From positions 1 to 59,063 of the forward strand of contig NZ_QEIO01000013.1 in NCBI RefSeq assembly GCF_003336425.1: DNA of 59,063 bases, read 5' to 3'. A model generated the notes under the pieces. The model had not been told where the DNA came from, did no database searches, and saw nothing but the letters and a program-made list of their open reading frames with translations. Position numbers and translations under genes: made by a program. This document shows positions 11,405 to 20,064 of this stretch, in pieces. Each line of letters opens with the position of its first letter. Position 1 is the stretch's first letter. The stretch comes from Marinitenerispora sediminis. GTDB taxonomy: Bacteria; Actinomycetota; Actinomycetes; Streptosporangiales; Streptosporangiaceae.

Positions 11405-12133
11405 GTGGCCCTGTCGGACGAGATCGCCGAAGACCTGCTGACGGCGATCATCGACGGACGCTACTCCGCCGGCAGCGCGCTGCCGCCCGAGGGCGAACTC
11501 GCCGAGAAGTACGCGGTCAGCCGGCTCACCGTCCGGGAGGCGATCACCGCGCTGCGGGTGCAGAGCGTCGTGCGGATCCAGCGCGGCCGGGGCACCTACG
11601 TCAACCCGCCGGACCAGTGGACCGCCCTGGAGCCCATGATCCGGGCCGCCGCCTCCACCCCCCGCACCAGCGCCGCCATCTCCGACCGGCTCATCGAGGC
11701 CCGCCGGCTGATCGAGACCGGCGCCGCCCAACTCGCCGCCGAGCGCCGTACCGACGAGGACCTGGAGCAGCTGGCCGCCCTGCTCGACGACATGCGCGCC
11801 GCCGACGGTGCCAGCGACGTCGAACTGTTCGTCCAGGCCGACATCGCCTTCCACGACGGCGTTATGCGCGCCACCGGCAACGCGTTCGTGCCGCTGCTCT
11901 TCGAACCGTTCGGGCGGCTGCTGGTGGAGGCGCGCCGCGAGACGTCGGCGGTCGCGCAGATCCGGGCGCACGCCATCGACCACCACGCGGCCATTCTCGA
12001 CGCGATCAGAGCCGGCGACGCCGAACGCGCCCGCACGGCCATGACGGCGCACCTCAACCAGACCGCCGACGACCTGCACACCCACGTGGTCGCGCCGAGG
12101 ACCGCGCCGGACGAGGCCGCCGGCACCGGCTGA
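11405..12133 (+). CDS. FadR-family (GntR) transcriptional regulator
   Basis: A 242-residue regulator with an N-terminal winged helix (about 5-70, with PPEGELAEKYAVSRLTVREAI) and a C-terminal FCD effector domain (about 90-230) that keeps the DIAFHDGVMRATGN region carrying metal-binding residues. FCD regulators sense small organic acids or sugar acids. It precedes a four-carbon acid sugar catabolic set on the same strand and has a perfect palindrome just upstream, so it probably represses both itself and that set. The start is GTG, preceded by GGAAGGAGG. Confidence 0.94.
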   Translation: MALSDEIAEDLLTAIIDGRYSAGSALPPEGELAEKYAVSRLTVREAITALRVQSVVRIQRGRGTYVNPPDQWTALEPMIRAAASTPRTSAAISDRLIEARRLIETGAAQLAAERRTDEDLEQLAALLDDMRAADGASDVELFVQADIAFHDGVMRATGNAFVPLLFEPFGRLLVEARRETSAVAQIRAHAIDHHAAILDAIRAGDAERARTAMTAHLNQTADDLHTHVVAPRTAPDEAAGTG

Positions 12134-12190
12134 CCGGGCCTCCGGCCGTCCCGGGGCCAGCGGGTCCCGGGGCACGGTATCGGACAGACG

Positions 12191-12205
12191 GTCAGACTGC
12201 CTGAC
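12191..12205 (+). promoter_or_regulatory. inverted repeat resembling the FadR operator
   Basis: GTCAG and CTGAC flank a 5-bp spacer 43 bp before the sugar acid kinase gene. It shares TCAGAC with the palindrome at 11346-11371, so it is probably a second, weaker site for the same regulator. Binding is inferred. Confidence 0.5.
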
Positions 12206-12248
12206 ACCTCCCGCCCCCGTTCCCACCCGACCGAAGGAAACACACCTC

Positions 12249-13727
12249 ATGTCCCACCCTCCGCAGCCCGGTGCCGCCGAGGCCGCTGGCGCCGTACCGC
12301 TGGAGCGGCTACTGGCCGACCAGCCGGCCGTGCGCCCCGTCCCGGCCGCCGAGGTCGCCGCCCGCGTCGCCGGCGGCCCCCGGCTGGTCGTGCTCGACGA
12401 CGACCCCACCGGCACCCAGACGGTCGCCGACGTCCCGGTGCTCACCCGGTGGGAGGTGGACGACCTGCGGTGGGGGCTCCGCCAGGACAGCACGGCGCTG
12501 TTCGTGCTCACCAACAGCCGCAGCCTCGGCCCCGAGGAGGCCGCCGAGCGCACCCGCGCCGTCGTGCGCGCGCTGCGCACGGCGTCGGCCGCCGAAGGCG
12601 TGGACTTCGTGATCGCCAGCCGCAGCGACTCCACCCTGCGCGGCCACTTCCCGCTGGAGACCGACGTCATCGCCGACGAGCTCGCCGCCACCGGCGCCGG
12701 CCCGATCGACGGTGTGGTCGTCGTGCCCGCCTACATCGAGCCGGGCCGGCTCACCGTCGACTCCACGCACTGGATGCGCGCCGACGGCCGCATGCTGCCG
12801 GTGGGACAGAGCGAGTTCGCCCGCGACGCGACCTTCGGCTACCGCAGCTCCGACCTGCGCGCGTGGATCGAGGAGAAGACCGGCGGGCGCGTGGCCGCCG
12901 CCGACGTCCTCGCCGTGACCCTCGCGGACCTGCGGGAACGCGGTCCCGAGCACGTCGCCGGGCTGCTCGCCGGCCTGCGCGGCGGACGCCCCGCCGTGGT
13001 CGACGCCGCCTGCGACGACGACCTGCGGGTGCTCGCCCTCGCCCTCGCCGACGCGGAGGCGCGCGGCACGCGGCTGCTCTACCGGGTCGGCCCCTCGTTC
13101 GTACGCGCCCGCTCCGGCCAGGACGCCCGCCCGCCCCTCACCGCCGAGTCGCTTCGCGCCCTCAGCGCCGACCGGGACGGCGCCCCGGCCGCCGAGCACG
13201 GCCTGATCGCCGTCGGCTCGCACGTCGGACTCACCACCCGCCAGCTCGACCGGCTCCGCCAACTCGACGGCCTCGCCGAGTTCGAGCTGCACGTGCCCAC
13301 CCTGCTGGACGCCGACCGGCGCGCCGGCCACATCGCCGAGGTCGTGGCCGCCTGCGCCGCGGCCCTCGACCGCACCGAGGTGGTCCTGCGCACCAGCCGC
13401 GACCTGGTGGTGGGCGGCGACGCCGACAGCAGCCTGGCGATCGCCCGCGAGGTCTCCGCGGCCCTGGTCGAGTCCGTCCGCGCCATCGCGGCCGAACGGC
13501 GGCCGGCCTTCGTCGTCGCCAAGGGCGGCATCACCTCCAGCGACATCGCCACCGAGGGACTGGAGGTCCGCCGGGCCTGGGCACGCGGCACCATGCTCCC
13601 CGGCATCATCTCGCTGTGGCAGCCGGTCTCCGGGCCCGGCGCCGGCATCCCCTACATCGTGTTCCCCGGCAACGTCGGGGACGACGACGCTCTCGCCGTC
13701 GTTGTCGACCGTCTCAGGAGCCGTTGA
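12249..13727 (+). CDS. four-carbon acid sugar kinase family protein (3-oxo-tetronate kinase-like)
   Basis: This 492-residue protein belongs to the family once called DUF1537 (OtnK/DtnK). The N-terminal substrate domain begins with LVVLDDDPTGTQT, whose aspartates are the family hallmark. The C-terminal nucleotide-binding domain carries FVVAKGGITSSDIATEGL. Known members phosphorylate D-threonate, D-erythronate or 3-oxo-tetronate. The ATG follows GAAGGAAA. The stop overlaps the next start by one base (TGATG), coupling it to the aldolase. The neighbouring dehydrogenase fits the oxidise-phosphorylate-cleave route known for tetronates. The exact substrate is open. Confidence 0.9.
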   Translation: MSHPPQPGAAEAAGAVPLERLLADQPAVRPVPAAEVAARVAGGPRLVVLDDDPTGTQTVADVPVLTRWEVDDLRWGLRQDSTALFVLTNSRSLGPEEAAERTRAVVRALRTASAAEGVDFVIASRSDSTLRGHFPLETDVIADELAATGAGPIDGVVVVPAYIEPGRLTVDSTHWMRADGRMLPVGQSEFARDATFGYRSSDLRAWIEEKTGGRVAAADVLAVTLADLRERGPEHVAGLLAGLRGGRPAVVDAACDDDLRVLALALADAEARGTRLLYRVGPSFVRARSGQDARPPLTAESLRALSADRDGAPAAEHGLIAVGSHVGLTTRQLDRLRQLDGLAEFELHVPTLLDADRRAGHIAEVVAACAAALDRTEVVLRTSRDLVVGGDADSSLAIAREVSAALVESVRAIAAERRPAFVVAKGGITSSDIATEGLEVRRAWARGTMLPGIISLWQPVSGPGAGIPYIVFPGNVGDDDALAVVVDRLRSR

Positions 13728-14584
13728 TGCTGACGCGTGGAACCGACGTCCTGACCGGCGCCGCCGCCGAGCGCCGCGCCGTGCCCGGGTTCGTCGCCTA
13801 CAACCTGGAGACCGCGCAGGCTGTCGCGGCCGCGGCCGAACTGGCCGGCGCCCCGGTGCTGCTCCAGGCCGGGTCGAGCGCCTTCCGGCACACTGGACGC
13901 GACGCGCTCGTCGAACTCGCCCTGGGCGTGGCCCGGCGCAGCGCCGCCCCGATCGGCGTGCACCTCGACCACAGCCGGGATCCCGAGGAGGCCGCCGCCT
14001 GCATCGCCGCGGGCTACACCTCCGTCATGATCGACGGATCGCACCTTCCGTTCACCGAGAACGTCGAACTCACCCGCGCGGTGGTGCGCCGCGCCCACGA
14101 CGCGGGCGTGTGGGTGGAGGGGGAACTCGGCGCGATCGCCGGCGACGAGGACGTGTCCACCGACGCCTCCGGCGGCACCATGACCGACCCCGGCCAGGCG
14201 GCCGAGTTCGTCGCCGCCACCGGCGTGGACGCGCTCGCGGTCTCGGTCGGCAACGTGCACGGCTTCACCAGCGCGCCCGTCCGGCTCGACCTCGACCGGC
14301 TCGCCGACATCCACGAGCTCGTGCCGGTCCCGCTCGTCCTGCACGGTGCGAGCGGCCTGCCCGAGGAGCAGCTGCTCGGCGCGCTCGACCGCGGCGTCGC
14401 CAAGGTCAACGTCAACGCCGAACTGCGCCGCGCCTACCTGACCGCCGTCGCCGACCGCCTCCCGGAGGCGCTGCCCGCCTCCGACACCGTCGCCACCTGG
14501 GCGGCTGGCCGCGGCGCGGTGCGCGACACCGCACTGCGGATCATCCGGCTCCTCGGCCGCGCCGGCACCGAGCCGGCGCCCTGA
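13727..14584 (+). CDS. class II fructose-bisphosphate aldolase family protein (KbaY/GatY-like)
   Basis: A 285-residue zinc-dependent aldolase. The metal ligands are visible in HLDHS, GNVHG and LHGASG, and VEGELG and KVNVNAELR are family motifs. The start at 13727 is fixed by the TGATG overlap with the kinase and by homology, since the open frame runs far upstream inside the kinase gene. Here it probably cleaves or decarboxylates the phosphorylated keto acid to a triose phosphate. Characterised tetronate pathways normally use an OtnC-type (araD-like) aldolase for this step, so a family member of this kind is unusual. The 258-bp gap after it has no clear signal. Confidence 0.9.
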   Translation: MLTRGTDVLTGAAAERRAVPGFVAYNLETAQAVAAAAELAGAPVLLQAGSSAFRHTGRDALVELALGVARRSAAPIGVHLDHSRDPEEAAACIAAGYTSVMIDGSHLPFTENVELTRAVVRRAHDAGVWVEGELGAIAGDEDVSTDASGGTMTDPGQAAEFVAATGVDALAVSVGNVHGFTSAPVRLDLDRLADIHELVPVPLVLHGASGLPEEQLLGALDRGVAKVNVNAELRRAYLTAVADRLPEALPASDTVATWAAGRGAVRDTALRIIRLLGRAGTEPAP

Positions 14585-14842
14585 CAGGGCACTCCGCCTG
14601 CACACGCCGCGTCCGGGCGGAGCTGCGATATCCCGGGGGCGCCGCCGCGAGGAGGAGCGCCCGGATCCGGACCCCCGGCACCACCGCCGGGACGGCCCCG
14701 CCCACTCCGATCCCGCCACGGGAGCACCTCCGACCGCCGCACGGGGGGCGCGGCCGGACGCTCCCGCCGATCGGAGGCGGGCGGTCCCGGTGCGGCGGCG
14801 GCCGACCCCCGCAAGCACACCCACGACACTGAGGACCCGAAC

Positions 14843-15766
14843 ATGTCCGAATCCACCTCGTCCACGCCCGCCGTGCCCCGCGTCGCGGTGCTCGGCCTTG
14901 GCGCCATGGGGCTGCCCATGGCCCGCCACCTGGCCGCCGACCTGCCGGTCACCGTCTTCGACGTCGCCGCCGAACGCCGCGCGCTCCTCACTGCCGTCGG
15001 CGCCGAGGACGCCGCCAGCCCGGCCGAGGCGGCCCGTGCCGCCGACGTCGTGCTCGTCGCCGTCCGGGACCAGGCGCAGGTCGAGGCCGCGCTGTTCGGC
15101 CCGGACGGCGCCGCCACGACGCTGCGCCCGGGCGGGGTCGTCGTCCTCACCAGCACCGTCGGCCCCGACGCCACCCGCACCACGGCCGCCCGGCTCGCCG
15201 AGTACGGCATCCAGACCGTGGACGCCCCCGTCAGCGGCGGTCCCACCCGCGCCGGCAACGGCGACCTGCTCATCGTCGTGGGCGCGGCGCCCGCGGCGCT
15301 GGAGCCCGCCCGCCCGGTGCTGGAGCGGCTCGCCTCCACCCTCACCATCGTCGGGCCCAACCCCGGGGACGGCCAGGCGCTCAAGGCCATCAACCAGCTG
15401 CTCGCCGGCGTGCACATCGCCGCCGCGGCCGAGGCCGTCGCTCTGGCCCGCGGGCTCGGGCTGGACCCGGCCGTGGTCGTCGGCAGCCTCGCCCAGGGCG
15501 CGGCCGGCTCCTTCATGCTCGCGGACCGGGGACCCCGCATGCTCCAGGCGTACGGCGAGGGTGCCGAGGTCCGCTCGCGGCTGGACATCTTCGTCAAGGA
15601 CATGGGCATCGTCACCGACGTCGCCAAGGGCGCCCACGTGCCCACCCCGCTGGCGGCGGCCGCCCAGCAGCTCTACCTCCTCGGCGAGCGGGCCGGTCTC
15701 GGCGCCCAGGACGACTCCAGCGTGGTCACCGTGCTCTCGCCACGTGACGACACCGGGGACCGGTGA
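14843..15766 (+). CDS. NAD(P)-dependent 3-hydroxyacid dehydrogenase (GarR/LtnD type)
   Basis: A 307-residue beta-hydroxyacid dehydrogenase. The N-terminal Rossmann motif is GLGAMGLPMARHLA, the substrate loop is DAPVSGGPTRAGNGDL, and the catalytic lysine is K181 in ALKAINQLL. Relatives oxidise L-threonate, D-glycerate or tartronate semialdehyde. In this context it is likely to oxidise a tetronate to its 2-oxo form before the kinase acts. It is 258 bp from the aldolase, so it may have its own promoter or be the last gene of the same transcript. Confidence 0.92.
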   Translation: MSESTSSTPAVPRVAVLGLGAMGLPMARHLAADLPVTVFDVAAERRALLTAVGAEDAASPAEAARAADVVLVAVRDQAQVEAALFGPDGAATTLRPGGVVVLTSTVGPDATRTTAARLAEYGIQTVDAPVSGGPTRAGNGDLLIVVGAAPAALEPARPVLERLASTLTIVGPNPGDGQALKAINQLLAGVHIAAAAEAVALARGLGLDPAVVVGSLAQGAAGSFMLADRGPRMLQAYGEGAEVRSRLDIFVKDMGIVTDVAKGAHVPTPLAAAAQQLYLLGERAGLGAQDDSSVVTVLSPRDDTGDR

Positions 15767-16343: not shown

Positions 16344-16481
16344 TCACATCTTTCCGGTGCCGCGGCAGGCCGGGCAGCTCATCGTGTCCGAACTCTGGCC
16401 GCCGGAGCCGTCGTGGGTCGACTCGACGACACCGGTACCTCCGTAGACCGGACAGTCCGGTGCCTCGCCATGCTTGCCCAT
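16344..16481 (-). CDS. 45-residue Cys/Gly-rich small protein, candidate modified peptide or zinc knuckle
   Basis: This short ORF begins directly after the methyltransferase stop (TGAATG), with a strong GGAGG about 6 bp before its ATG, so its translation is well supported. The peptide has two related motifs, CPVYGGTG (10-17) and CPACRGTG (36-43), the second a DnaJ-like CxxCxGxG half-knuckle. Between them is a Ser/Gly-rich stretch with a DG pair (D24-G25) and several hydroxyl residues. Two readings fit: a tiny zinc-binding protein, or a precursor peptide modified by the adjacent isoaspartate-type methyltransferase. The first motif lacks its second cysteine (Tyr13), which weakens the zinc reading. 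No function is known to me. Confidence 0.7.
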   Translation of the reverse strand: MGKHGEAPDCPVYGGTGVVESTHDGSGGQSSDTMSCPACRGTGKM

Positions 16482-17609
16482 TCACGTCCTCCGTTCGACA
16501 GGGGTGGCGGGACGGTCCAGCCACACGCGCTGCCCGTCTGGGGTGACGTCCAGGCCGAACCGCTCCGCGTCCGGCTCGCCCCAGCTCACCCAGTCCCGGT
16601 ACGCGGTCACCAGCTCGTCCCACAGGTCACGCGGTCCACGCTGGGTCACCTGCGCTGCGCCGTCGTCGGGCGGCGCCACGGCGATGGCGTGTGAGTCGCT
16701 CGCCAGGTCTCGCACGACGAGCCGGAACGTGCCGTCCACCGGATTCCGCACGCCGCCCCCCACGGTCACTCCCGGCAGCAGACCCGCCAGAGCCACGCGC
16801 AGCCCGGCGCCGCCCTGATCGAGACGGCGCGGGTCCACGCCGGCCGGCGACTCCCGCCGCTCGCCGTGGATCGGAACGAGCGGTTCCCGCTGGCCGCGCA
16901 GCAGCATGTACGTCGCACCACCGTGGAAACGGCCCACAGCGGTGCCGTTGGCGGCGATCACGAACCGCACCTTCAGCCGTGCGCCGGATGCCGCCATCCA
17001 CGGAGCCACGATCACGCCGCCCGGACGAGTCTGGGTCACCCACGTGTACGGGATCTCCCGCACACCGCAGGTGACGTGCACGCGGTCATACGGCGCGCGG
17101 TCGGCCCACCCCAACGCGCCGTCGCCGACGATCAGGGTGGGGGCGAACGCGGCGAGTTCGAGGTTCGCGGCGGCGCGCTCGGCGAGTCGGGGGTCCACCT
17201 CGACCGAGGTGACATTCCGGTCCCCGACCCGTGCCGAGAGCAGCGCGCATGTCCATCCGGTTCCGGTGCCGATCTCCAGCGTCTGGTCGCCGGGGTCGGG
17301 CGCCAACAGGCGGAGGAAGTCCAGGACCACGCCCGGGGCGGAGAGCGAGCAGGTGTAGTTCGCCGTCCGCACCACGGTTTCGGCGGTCAGCTCGGTGGCG
17401 CCGTCATCGATCTGGGTGACGATGGCGGTGTCGCCGTACACCGTCGCCCACCAGTTCTCGGGATCGGCGGTCCGGTCGATCCACACCCGGCGATCCGCGT
17501 CCCAGCCCGCGTTCGGCGCGAAGAGATGCCGGGGGGCGGCCCGGAACACCTCGGCCCATTCCGGTGGGAGGTAGAGACCGGCGATCCGATCACCGTTGGG
17601 CGGGGGCAT
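16482..17609 (-). CDS. protein-L-isoaspartate O-methyltransferase-like enzyme with C-terminal extension
   Basis: A 375-residue SAM-dependent enzyme of the PCMT fold. The SAM motif LEIGTGTGWTCALLS covers about 110-125, and GDGALGWADRAPYDRVHVTCG is the next conserved block. Canonical repair enzymes are about 210-230 residues; here about 145 residues follow, and the usual ISQP-type active-site loop reads VTQIDDG. Such extended forms are known from RiPP clusters, where they methylate Asp to give aspartimides, and from the FxLD lanthipeptide methyltransferases. I chose the ATG at 17609 because GGAAAGG precedes it; a longer in-frame start exists at 17636. The 45-residue ORF follows with no gap. Confidence 0.88.
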   Translation of the reverse strand: MPPPNGDRIAGLYLPPEWAEVFRAAPRHLFAPNAGWDADRRVWIDRTADPENWWATVYGDTAIVTQIDDGATELTAETVVRTANYTCSLSAPGVVLDFLRLLAPDPGDQTLEIGTGTGWTCALLSARVGDRNVTSVEVDPRLAERAAANLELAAFAPTLIVGDGALGWADRAPYDRVHVTCGVREIPYTWVTQTRPGGVIVAPWMAASGARLKVRFVIAANGTAVGRFHGGATYMLLRGQREPLVPIHGERRESPAGVDPRRLDQGGAGLRVALAGLLPGVTVGGGVRNPVDGTFRLVVRDLASDSHAIAVAPPDDGAAQVTQRGPRDLWDELVTAYRDWVSWGEPDAERFGLDVTPDGQRVWLDRPATPVERRT

Positions 17610-17653
17610 GGGGACCTTTCCGAGCGGGGATGCCACAGCGAGGGTATGCCCCC

Positions 17654-17711
17654 GCTGTGGTTCCCATCAGCGAAAATGGCCCACTCCGGCCATCAGGCGG
17701 GCGCCGGGTCC
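17654..17711. repeat. diverged direct repeat, copy A
   Basis: This 58-bp stretch aligns without gaps to 17970-18027 with roughly three quarters identity by eye; shared blocks are CTGTGGT, CAGCG, AAATG, CGGCC, TCAGG and CGGGTCC. Copy B contains the 3' end of the ATP-binding gene, so copy A looks like the surviving end of a second, lost copy of such a gene. Confidence 0.65.
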
Positions 17712-17712
17712 C

Positions 17713-17996
17713 TGTCTCCTTCACCGAGCAGAACACTGGTCCCACCACCCCGGTCCTGCTCCAGCTGCTCACCAAGGTTCTCGACGAGAACGCGGAGCTG
17801 CCCTCGGGTAACGCCTACTCCACCATCGACGACGTCTTCCGCTTCACCGAGGTCCTGCGCGGCCGTGGCACCGCCCACGGACGGCGTTCCTGTCTCCCGT
17901 GCTCTTCGACTACGAGGGCGGTGCGCAGGCCGCCGTCGGCCTGCGCGATGCGGCGCTGGTGCATCCCGCCCTGTGGTCTGCACCAGCGCAAATGAC
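17713..17996 (+). pseudogene. frameshifted coding remnant between the direct repeats
   Basis: On the plus strand, codons end almost only in G/C over two adjoining frames: first about 17713-17880 (FTEQNTGPTTPVLLQLLTKV to FRFTEVLRG), then, after a frame change near 17880, TAFLSPVLFDYEGGAQAAVG and onward to about 17990. There is no plausible start codon. It opposes the direction of the flanking genes. I do not recognise the family, so this is a fragment call based on composition only. Confidence 0.45.
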
Positions 17997-18027
17997 CGAA
18001 CACGGCCCTCAGGTGGGCGACGGGTCC
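17970..18027. repeat. diverged direct repeat, copy B
   Basis: Partner of 17654-17711. It includes the stop codon and last codons of the ATP-binding protein on the minus strand. Confidence 0.65.
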
Positions 18028-18509
18028 GCGCCGGGCCGGGGGTGCGCCGGATGCGGCGGGAGGAAGTAGAGCCGTCCCCGGTCGCGACGGGGGAGCGGTG
18101 GCGCCTGGCGGGGCGGCCACTCCAGGCGGAACCAGACGACGGGTTCGCCGGGCATGCGGCCCCAGGCGTTCGCGAGGGCGTCCACGAGGAAGAGGCCACG
18201 CCCGCTCTCGGCCATAAGGCCGGGGTTCTTGAGTGTGGGCGAGGTGTCGCCGATTCCCTCGTCGGTGACGTAGACGCGCAGCGCGTGGGGCCACAGGGCC
18301 AGTCCGACGCTGAAGGTGCCGGAGTCGCCGCTGGTGGTGTGGCGCAGGGCGTTGGTGGCGAGCTCGCTGGTGAGCAGGACGGCGTTGGCCTGGACCTCGT
18401 CGGGGACGACGGGGCCGAAGGGGGAAGCGAGCGACCAGGTGAGCCAGGCACGGGCGGCGGCGACGCTTTTGGGGGCGCCGGGGAAGTGGGAGACGTGGAG
18501 GCGGTGCAT
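18009..18509 (-). CDS. ATP-binding protein, anti-sigma-factor-like HATPase
   Basis: A 166-residue single-domain GHKL ATPase of the RsbW/SpoIIAB-like group that is abundant in actinobacteria. The N box reads ELATNALRHT, the ATP lid region YVTDEGIGD, and the end of the domain ESGRGLFLVDALANAWG. Such proteins bind or phosphorylate regulators, and partners are often encoded nearby. The start at 18509 is preferred because GGGAGGAGG lies about 8 bp upstream; an ATG two codons earlier is too close to it. A Pro/Arg-rich tail of about 30 residues follows the domain. It is divergent from the XRE regulator. Confidence 0.9.
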   Translation of the reverse strand: MHRLHVSHFPGAPKSVAAARAWLTWSLASPFGPVVPDEVQANAVLLTSELATNALRHTTSGDSGTFSVGLALWPHALRVYVTDEGIGDTSPTLKNPGLMAESGRGLFLVDALANAWGRMPGEPVVWFRLEWPPRQAPPLPRRDRGRLYFLPPHPAHPRPGADPSPT

Positions 18510-18656
18510 GGTCATGCCTCCTCCCGGGAAATGGAGCGGCGGGTCTGGAATCCACGCCGGTGAATTTCCGCTCGGTGTGCATGACAGTCTCGGACATATG
18601 TCGCGATAGCATTTGGCATTGCGTCCGAACCTGCTCCCGTCAGGTTGTGGGCCGTA

Positions 18657-18690
18657 GGCCCCACCGGGTGGCGTAACACCTGGTGGGGCC
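18657..18690 (+). other. strong hairpin in the divergent promoter region
   Basis: GGCCCCACCGGGTG and CACCTGGTGGGGCC pair over 14 positions (one G-U) around a GCGTAA loop, followed by GTTCTTGT. It looks like an intrinsic terminator, yet it lies between two divergent genes (18509 minus, 18850 plus) with no gene to end there. It could be an attenuator in the leader of the XRE gene or the end of an unseen small RNA. The rest of the 340-bp gap is AT-richer than its surroundings and holds no gene. Confidence 0.6.
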
Positions 18691-18849
18691 GTTCTTGTGC
18701 TGCGTTCTGGCAGCTCATTCATCCTGGGGGAGCGGTCCGATGAATGCCATGCGTGACCAAGGGCGGGAGAATGTCGAGAAGTGTCGTGGCGGGATGAAAG
18801 GGTTTGTGGTGCTGTGGCACCGCAGCTATCGGTGTGCTTCACTGAGATC

Positions 18850-19668
18850 ATGGTCAAAAAATCTGACGGCGTTGCGCTGAAATTTGGCCGTACTCTACGT
18901 GAAACGCGGCGTTTGGCGGGAAAGACGCAAGAGCGTCTCGCCCGCGAAGTCGGCGTGAGCTCCTCGCATCTTTCGAACGTCGAATCCGGCTACAGGTTCC
19001 CGCCCTCCTACCTCGTCGCGTCGCTGGACAAGGCACTGGAGACCGGCGGGCGGCTGCTGCGGTTGTGGGAGCAGCTGACCGACAGGGGACGTCCGGCATG
19101 GCTGACCGCGCTGGCGGACTTGGAGCGCGAGGCGACGACGATCCTGGACTGTCAGACGACGCTCTTCCCTGGTCTGTTGCAGACGGAGGAATATGCCCGT
19201 GTCGTGCTCAAAGCGGCTGCGCCGTGGGCAAGCGCTGATTTTCTGGCCTCAAGCGTTGAAGCTCGATTGGGTCGGGGTCAGCGGTTCGTGGAGTCGGAGT
19301 CGCCTATCCTGTGGACTGTCCTCGATGAGATGATTGTGAAACGTTGCGTAGGATCACCCGAGATCATGCGGAATCAACTGTCTTGGGTGGTGGACCTCGT
19401 GGAGCGAGGGAGGGTGACAGTTCAGATCATCCCTGTATCGACGACCCACCATCCAGGGCTTGCCGGACCGTTCCGAGTGATCTCAGCTCCCGCGAACCCG
19501 GACGTGGTGTACGCGGAGAGCATTCACTCCGGGCAGATCATCGATGAGCCCACTGATGTAGCGCGGTACCGACTGGTGTATGGAGCCCTGCAAGCCGCAG
19601 CGCTGTCCCCACCACAGTCTCTCAGCCTGCTACGGAAAGAGTTGGAAGGTTTGCAAGATGAACCATGA
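18850..19668 (+). CDS. XRE-family regulator with DUF5753 domain
   Basis: A 272-residue regulator of the WhiJ-like kind. The helix-turn-helix spans about residues 10-65 (TQERLAREVGVSSSHLSNVESG), and the DUF5753 domain fills the rest, with the usual QTTLFPGLLQTEEYAR and ADFLASSVEARLGRGQ. The ATG at 18850 begins MVKKSDGVALKFG, the normal start for the family. Codon use is visibly less GC-biased than in core genes, as is common for such accessory regulators. It overlaps the first DUF397 gene by 11 bp. In Streptomyces such regulator/DUF397 pairs act together, often with an ATPase nearby, as here. Confidence 0.95.
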   Translation: MVKKSDGVALKFGRTLRETRRLAGKTQERLAREVGVSSSHLSNVESGYRFPPSYLVASLDKALETGGRLLRLWEQLTDRGRPAWLTALADLEREATTILDCQTTLFPGLLQTEEYARVVLKAAAPWASADFLASSVEARLGRGQRFVESESPILWTVLDEMIVKRCVGSPEIMRNQLSWVVDLVERGRVTVQIIPVSTTHHPGLAGPFRVISAPANPDVVYAESIHSGQIIDEPTDVARYRLVYGALQAAALSPPQSLSLLRKELEGLQDEP

Positions 19669-19858
19669 ATCGGCGACACCTCGCGGGTGGCACAAGTCGA
19701 GCTATAGCGGCAACCCCAGGCAGGAGTGCGTCGAGGTGCGGGAGACGCCGACCACCGCTCTCGTGCGTGATACGCAGAACCGGCGGGCTGGTCATCTGGC
19801 GTTCTCGATCCCTGAGTGGAGCGCGTTCATTGTGTCGGTGAAGCGGGACGAGATTTAG
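19658..19858 (+). CDS. DUF397 protein, first copy
   Basis: A 66-residue DUF397 protein with the hallmark WHKSSYSG near the N-terminus, CVEV and the VRDTQNRRAGHLAFS...WSAFI ending. DUF397 proteins are small partners of XRE/DUF5753 regulators. The ATG overlaps the regulator gene by 11 bp, so the two are co-translated. A second, diverged copy follows 17 bp later. Confidence 0.95.
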   Translation: MNHESATPRGWHKSSYSGNPRQECVEVRETPTTALVRDTQNRRAGHLAFSIPEWSAFIVSVKRDEI

Positions 19859-19875
19859 CTTCGGGAAGAGGTCTC

Positions 19876-20064
19876 ATGGCGTCCACCCCAGAGTGGCACA
19901 AGAGCAGCTACAGCGGCGGCAACGCCGGTGCGTGCGTGGAGGTCGCCGAAACCAACCGTGACGTCTACGTCCGTGATACGCAGCACCGCCACCACGGCCA
20001 CCTCGCCTTCCCCTCGACCGAGTGGGCCGCTTTCCTCCGTGACCTGAAACTCGGTCACCTCTGA
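19876..20064 (+). CDS. DUF397 protein, second copy
   Basis: A 62-residue DUF397 protein (WHKSSYSGGNAGACVEVAE, VRDTQHRHHGHLAFPSTEWAAFL). It is about half identical to the copy before it by eye, suggesting an old tandem duplication with separate partners or roles. GGGAAGAGG lies upstream of its ATG. A strong terminator follows its stop. Confidence 0.95.
   Translation: MASTPEWHKSSYSGGNAGACVEVAETNRDVYVRDTQHRHHGHLAFPSTEWAAFLRDLKLGHL

Follow-up and report, generated by a model that had tools for sequence, protein, structure and literature searches.

The window, by which we mean the whole stretch of 59,063 nucleotides analysed here, contains on its minus strand two directly adjoining genes, one for a PIMT-like methyltransferase (MT; PAMT) and one for a small putative precursor peptide. 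The features of the pair and of its surroundings are as follows:

16485..17609, minus strand: PIMT-like methyltransferase gene, 375 aa, ATG start, with the stop codon TGA at 16484-16482
16344..16481, minus strand: precursor ORF of 45 codons, predicted zinc-ribbon hairpin CPVY-GGTG ... D24-G25 ... CPAC-RGTG, stop codon at 16346-16344
16488..16492, minus strand: GGAGG ribosome-binding site of the precursor ORF, within the 3' end of the MT gene, read directly from the sequence
16410..16412, minus strand: codon of Asp24, the predicted modified residue, which has the residue number of Asp24 of FcaA
16443..16445, minus strand: codon of Tyr13 (TAC), at the position of the second zinc cysteine in 90 of the 91 surveyed sites
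18781..19665, plus strand: HTH-DUF5753 (XRE/Scr1-type) regulator gene, a divergent neighbour
19580-19855 and 19816-20061, plus strand: two DUF397 genes adjoining the DUF5753 regulator
18009..18857, minus strand: HATPase_c_2 (RsbW-like) gene, which lies upstream of the MT on its strand; the actual start codon may be internal to the ORF

The TGA of the MT is followed with zero gap by the ATG of the small ORF (16481-16479), and a GGAGG (16492-16488) is positioned six bases 5' of this ATG. An alternative GTG start of the MT at 17636 would give a protein of 384 aa. The small ORF translates to MGKHGEAPDCPVYGGTGVVESTHDGSGGQSSDTMSCPACRGTGKM, in which D24-G25 lies between CPVYGGTG and CPACRGTG. Direct reading of the sequence confirmed the 375-residue PCMT-fold enzyme, the TGAATG junction, and the 45-codon ORF with its own GGAGG that had been described in an earlier, sequence-only reading of this DNA. 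The Asp-Gly pair between two CPxxxGTG motifs also stands as described there; that CPVY lacks the second cysteine had passed without remark.

The MT has a Rossmann core with the SAM motif EIGTGTGW and, as is typical of a PAMT, a C-terminal domain, which carries WxxxGxP at W340-P346, a motif named in a 2026 review (PMC13001092). Its match to PF01135 scores 95 bits. The MT is homologous to the graspetide methyltransferases (TIGR04188, ATP-grasp peptide maturase methyltransferase; 271 bits over nearly the full length, cut-off 380) and to the FxLD lanthipeptide methyltransferases (TIGR04364; 99 bits, cut-off 320), with scores that fall below both cut-offs, and it reaches 70-90 bits with PIMT models whose equivalog cut-offs are 159-359. 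A housekeeping repair PIMT would have about 210-230 aa, no C-terminal domain, and scores over the equivalog cut-offs, and the window MT, at 375 aa, has none of these properties.

An AlphaFold2 model of the MT (mean pLDDT 87.3, 18-row alignment) predicts a PIMT fold plus a C-terminal domain. The best PDB match of the model is the T. maritima PIMT 1DL5, a loose match (378 alignment columns, TM-score 0.53 by query, rmsd 7.3), and the further matches are mostly single-domain PIMTs aligned over about 240-260 columns. Lee et al. (PMC10787088; this paper, PMC13001092, and PMC13097080 are cited here from parts of their texts) place 1DL5 in the RiPP-PIMT clade and describe an extra C-terminal domain in RiPP-associated PIMTs. 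Because 1DL5 is the best fold match, the modelled C-terminal part of the window MT may be likened, loosely, to that domain (PMC10787088). As for the "altered active-site loop" of the sequence-only reading, the SAP loop proved to be ordinary for the MT family, and Cys87 alone departs from it, replacing a Ser that is kept in at least 95% of the 27 other members of the MT clade described below. With S87C included, the window MT departs at 6 of 82 near-invariant clade columns, compared with a median of 2 for the 28 members, which is the second highest count in the clade, tied with L061.

For the window peptide, AlphaFold2 predicts a two-stranded hairpin with strands at residues 18-25 and 28-35 (mean pLDDT 79.9, pTM 0.42), in which D24-G25 sits just before the turn. 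The best Pfam match of the peptide is PF00684, the DnaJ zinc domain, at 24.1 bits, below the gathering threshold of 32.7. The DnaJ zinc domain has four repeats, and the window peptide has two.

The distribution of the small ORF was surveyed from the MT and, separately, from the peptide. The first MT-first search covered 60 genomes, with 50 loci examined. The sequence-only reading had staked its case on the small ORF being present and conserved behind homologous MTs; in this search it was both, a peptide following the MT in 12 of the 12 loci of the window's MT clade (clade support 1.000), with M1, H4, C10, G15, D24, C36, C39, G41, and G43 common to 11 of the 12 peptides. In the window and ten other loci, the distance between the MT stop and the peptide is -8 to +2 bases; at L041 it stands behind a broken MT and at L025 in front of the MT, and none was seen beside the MT at the other PIMT-like loci of the same search. 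A second MT-first search found the peptide at 5 of 80 named loci; more distant PIMT homologues are mostly without it.

We further searched 250 genomes of the host's taxonomic family with a profile of the peptide and examined the neighbourhoods of all 91 rows down to E 2.1e-7 (L219 and L220, chosen for an adjoining MT that was already known, were excluded from the 91). A same-strand PIMT-like MT is located within 300 nt of 83 of the 91 sites, a lower bound for the 250 genomes, and within 70 nt of 79; since the profile was seeded with MT-adjacent peptides, adjacency among its best matches arises partly by selection. Many of the weaker profile matches belong to DnaJ-sized frames, of about 370-470 aa. 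In a class-wide search of 394 genomes, an MT was found beside the peptide in 7 of the 11 fetched loci outside the host's family, the matches at the other 4 being located within frames of 338-1164 aa, DnaJ-sized or larger.

Among related peptides of equal length, the 14 most similar pairs gave dN values of 0.03-0.16 versus dS values of 0.31-1.85. Purifying selection acts on the small ORF in relatives, and the ORF is a conserved gene. That it is a chance ORF behind a PIMT homologue is a thought invited by its shortness and by the GC-rich DNA, but with conservation across the clade and purifying selection in relatives against it, the likelihood of this explanation is negligible. A separate precursor upstream of the MT was also considered; when all frames around the MT were compared in 12 loci, none stood out. 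In most of the 12 loci, the shared frames cover the MT, and they include the downstream peptide; HTH-DUF5753/DUF397 genes recur in five. There is also clustering among some short frames that begin upstream of the MT and run into it, and these seem to be alternative frames of the 5' region of the MT gene.

The gene pair is reminiscent of a RiPP class that was first described in 2023 and in which the role of the modification is largely unknown (PMC10787088). Lee et al. describe the type II pamtides as two-gene clusters of a PAMT and a zinc-ribbon precursor with the arrangement CxxCxGxG-D-CxxCxGxG (PMC10787088). The review names them cysimiditides, gives a count of 125 by Kim and colleagues, reports that they are most frequent in Nocardiopsis, and states that imiditide precursors are often unannotated (PMC13001092). 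In the characterised pair FcaA/FcaM from Frankia casuarinae, Asp24 is converted to isoAsp via +14 and then -18 Da intermediates, the reported chemistry being Asp to methyl ester to aspartimide to isoAsp; no mass change of FcaA is reported without zinc or with blocked cysteines, and both zinc and the cysteines are required (PMC10787088).

The window cluster likewise comprises two genes, for a small precursor and a PIMT-like PAMT, and its peptide has an Asp, D24, between two motifs. The proposal of the sequence-only reading that this is a PIMT-only RiPP system gains support both from the conservation of the peptide beside the MT clade and from this correspondence with the published cysimiditide class. 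The DnaJ-like zinc knuckle, which had been offered there as a rival interpretation, appears to be a correct description of the peptide; it is, however, not an alternative to the RiPP reading, because in the published class the zinc ribbon is itself the substrate and zinc is needed for its modification (PMC10787088, PMC13001092).

In detail, the window pair shares with FcaA/FcaM the two genes, the D24 precursor, and the PIMT homologue, whereas FcaA has four cysteines and the window peptide three (PMC10787088). One locus from the class-wide search, L226, encodes ITVTSDGK, known from FcaA as a published tryptic fragment, and the Asp of this fragment is residue 24; we infer from it that L226 may be FcaA itself or come from Frankia. 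The window peptide is identical to that of L226 at 18 of 41 aligned residues and the MT at 150 of 340, and the two loci have in common the (M/V)GKH start of the peptide and the WxxxGxP of the MT. They differ in gene order, the peptide preceding the MT in L226 and following it in the window, and in the loop, which in the window is four residues longer and Ser/Gly-rich. The cysimiditides TceA* (Thermobifida cellulosilytica) and NalA (Nocardiopsis alba) form a Zn-tetracysteine hairpin with a PIMT-installed aspartimide as the sole modification; by the review's description their tetracysteine is complete, whereas that of the window is not (PMC13001092). The imiditides, or type I pamtides (NmaA/NmaM, SpaA/SpaM), resemble the window in that a PIMT homologue is the only modifying enzyme, but their precursors, unlike that of the window, are linear, have no cysteine motif, and are recognised by charge.

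The loop residue follows the enzyme across the survey. Asp occupies the loop column in 80 of the 83 sites with an MT versus 2 of the 8 without (Fisher p 3e-6, a value uncorrected for relatedness and obtained with MT-adjacent seeds), Asn or Glu being found in the others. The MT-adjacent exceptions are L078, with Glu by alignment, next to an Asn-Gly; L205, with Asn-Gly; and a second site at L202, also with Asn-Gly, whose MT lies 237 nt away and has an Asp peptide of its own. An Asp peptide with no MT in the fetched DNA is found at L200 and L217, and in a later search also at L237.

This association bears on whether the peptide, instead of being the substrate of the MT, might be a zinc-ribbon protein that stably partners it or serves as its chaperone-like subunit, with the MT repairing isoAsp in other proteins. 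Such a role would suit a peptide whose best, sub-threshold Pfam match is PF00684, and Asp-Gly is also a natural β-turn; against it, Asp tracks the presence of the MT and the peptide is the substrate in the characterised relative, and we regard it as improbable.

At L078 and L205, the adjoining MT is paired with a loop Asn-Gly in place of Asp-Gly; because Asn-Gly can form a succinimide without an enzyme, the MT at these two loci might act on isoAsp. The zinc-ribbon mini-proteins at L181, L185, L201, L203, L215, and L216 carry a loop Asn or Glu, and the DNA fetched around them shows no PIMT-like MT; they are possibly unmodified relatives or partners of another enzyme.

We conclude that the window pair is very probably a cysimiditide (type II pamtide) gene pair in which Asp24 would be the residue modified by the PIMT-like MT. 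The chemistry and the need for zinc are taken from published relatives, and we infer the same reaction for the window pair. In this reaction, zinc would hold the two knuckles of the precursor together, and the zinc-ribbon β-hairpin would present D24-G25 beside the turn. The MT would dock on the folded hairpin and methylate Asp24 with SAM, the backbone amide of Gly25 would expel methanol to give the aspartimide, and the aspartimide would hydrolyse to isoAsp or Asp. This RiPP class is already described, and the window pair falls within it as a divergent relative.

The window copy departs from the class in its cysteines. All four are present in 81 of the 91 surveyed sites, and at least one is missing from the remaining 10; with CPVYGGTG in place of the first of two complete CxxCxGxG motifs, the window peptide has three of the four. 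It is alone among the 91 in having a residue other than Cys at the second position (Tyr13, TAC), the other losses affecting the first cysteine (Arg, five sites), the third (Tyr, two sites), and the fourth (Ser or Trp, one site each). The peptide of L188 is cut by a stop. The same genome holds a four-Cys peptide-MT pair on contig C40. Since the tetracysteine is kept in 81 of 91 sites and a C40 paralogue is present, the window copy is best classed by descent, as a divergent relative, and its functional membership of the class is putative. Because Tyr13 stands in for the second of the four zinc cysteines, modification of the window peptide itself is uncertain and efficient modification is doubtful. 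The window copy could represent either a variant with three zinc ligands or a paralogue of the C40 pair that is decaying.

Decay is compatible with the cysimiditide reading by descent. It would mean that Tyr13 abolished zinc binding, that the peptide is unmodified, and that the locus is being lost, an outcome to which we give slightly less than an even chance. The uniqueness of the non-Cys second position among the 91 sites points this way, as do the 10 sites without at least one cysteine, some of them beside fragmentary MTs (L066, L178), the 6 departures of the window MT from near-invariant columns, and the retention of the four-Cys pair on C40. Yet the window MT is full length with its SAM motif, the peptide retains D24, G15, G17, C36, and C39, single-Cys losses also occur beside full-length MTs (L076, L171, L177), and there is a second CPIY case in another family, L235. 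Decay by correlated drift of the MT found no support, as Cys-losing members do not have significantly more MT departures (p 0.14, 4 vs 24).

It is possible but rather unlikely that the window pair works as a cysimiditide with three cysteines, the lost one being replaced by another ligand or the hairpin forming without full zinc coordination. If it were true, the tetracysteine rule of the class would not be absolute, and the CPIY of L235 would be a second case. The window, where the substrate has lost a zinc ligand and the enzyme has been retained, offers a natural test of the reported zinc requirement. At L235, which belongs to a different taxonomic family from the host, an MT follows the CPIY precursor, and the fetched DNA reaches just the first part of that MT.

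The diversity of the MTs was assessed with a quick tree of 111 MT cores that excluded MTs shorter than 220 aa, MTs containing a stop, and four loci without a peptide. The window MT falls in a clade of 28 members, all with the MT before the peptide (SH-aLRT 98). A second clade of 36 members (support 99) comprises 33 loci in peptide-MT order and 3 in MT-peptide order and holds the short MTs, and a third clade of 7 members (support 98) has long MTs in peptide-MT order; L074 plus L169, L214, L078, L025, and L189 are placed elsewhere in the tree. By label, the MT is under 300 aa in 33 of the 82 sites measured (the second site of L202 was left out); [WY]xxxGxP is present among the final 70 residues in 17 of these MTs and missing from 16, a few of which come close to the pattern. 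At L065 and L164, the MTs carry the label of fragments and likewise measure 284-286 aa; the MT genes of L187, L195, and L199 are possibly truncated. Pairs of this kind are common in the host's family, beside several MT lineages, in both gene orders, and including MTs under 300 aa. The mining and counting of Lee et al. excluded PAMTs of less than 300 aa at the outset (PMC10787088), and according to the review all RiPP PIMTs carry the extra C-terminal domain (PMC13001092).

Eleven short MTs of the 36-member clade, all in peptide-MT order (L070, L077, L079, L080, L172, L180, L184, L190, L193, L202, and L206), have about 245-285 aa and are without WxxxGxP and most of the C-terminal domain. The cysimiditide paper is reportedly that of Zhu et al. 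2025 and the imiditide paper that of Cao et al. 2023. In the literature on imiditides, cysimiditides, and pamtides, represented here mostly by titles and outside the text of Zhu et al. 2025, we saw none naming such short enzymes.

Among the 12 neighbouring ORFs scanned, there was no protease or exporter, and the families listed for them included no ATP-grasp match. The HATPase_c_2 gene is found in 0 of 18 MT-peptide 3-kb loci, and the clade member L004 has a similar upstream frame; that this gene is part of the unit is unproven. HTH-DUF5753 genes, counted with a profile grown from the window gene and not with PF19054, are present in 8 of 18 MT-peptide loci (7 of 17 distinct ones, L032 and L166 being the same place) and in 18 of 35 peptide-MT loci. 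At PIMT loci unpaired with a peptide, the counts are 6 of 13 (3-kb) or 36 of 75 (5-kb), two sets that may share places. The background is 447 matches in 12 genomes of about 74 Mb (6-59 per genome), or roughly 0.04 per 7 kb. The HTH-DUF5753 gene was rejected as a mark of cysimiditides, as it is similarly frequent at PIMT loci unpaired with a peptide and occurs at about half of the PIMT-like loci examined. Its frequency beside PIMT-like MTs, whether or not a peptide is present, makes it a mark of the enzyme family and not of the pair; the link has already been noted for graspetide groups 11 and 13 (PMC13097080).

Upstream of the MT, a repeat search returned no match at the settings used, and pairwise alignment found a 63-base imperfect direct repeat (17649-17711 and 17965-18027, 48 of 63 identical). 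The two copies flank the remnant of a frame-broken ORF, which seems to resemble part of a serine hydrolase; its two pieces had no Pfam match. On the other side of the pair, positions 11405-15763 hold in a row genes for a GntR-type regulator, a four-carbon sugar-acid kinase (PF07005/PF17042), a class II aldolase, and an L-threonate dehydrogenase-like protein, which probably constitute a threonate/erythronate-type catabolic operon.
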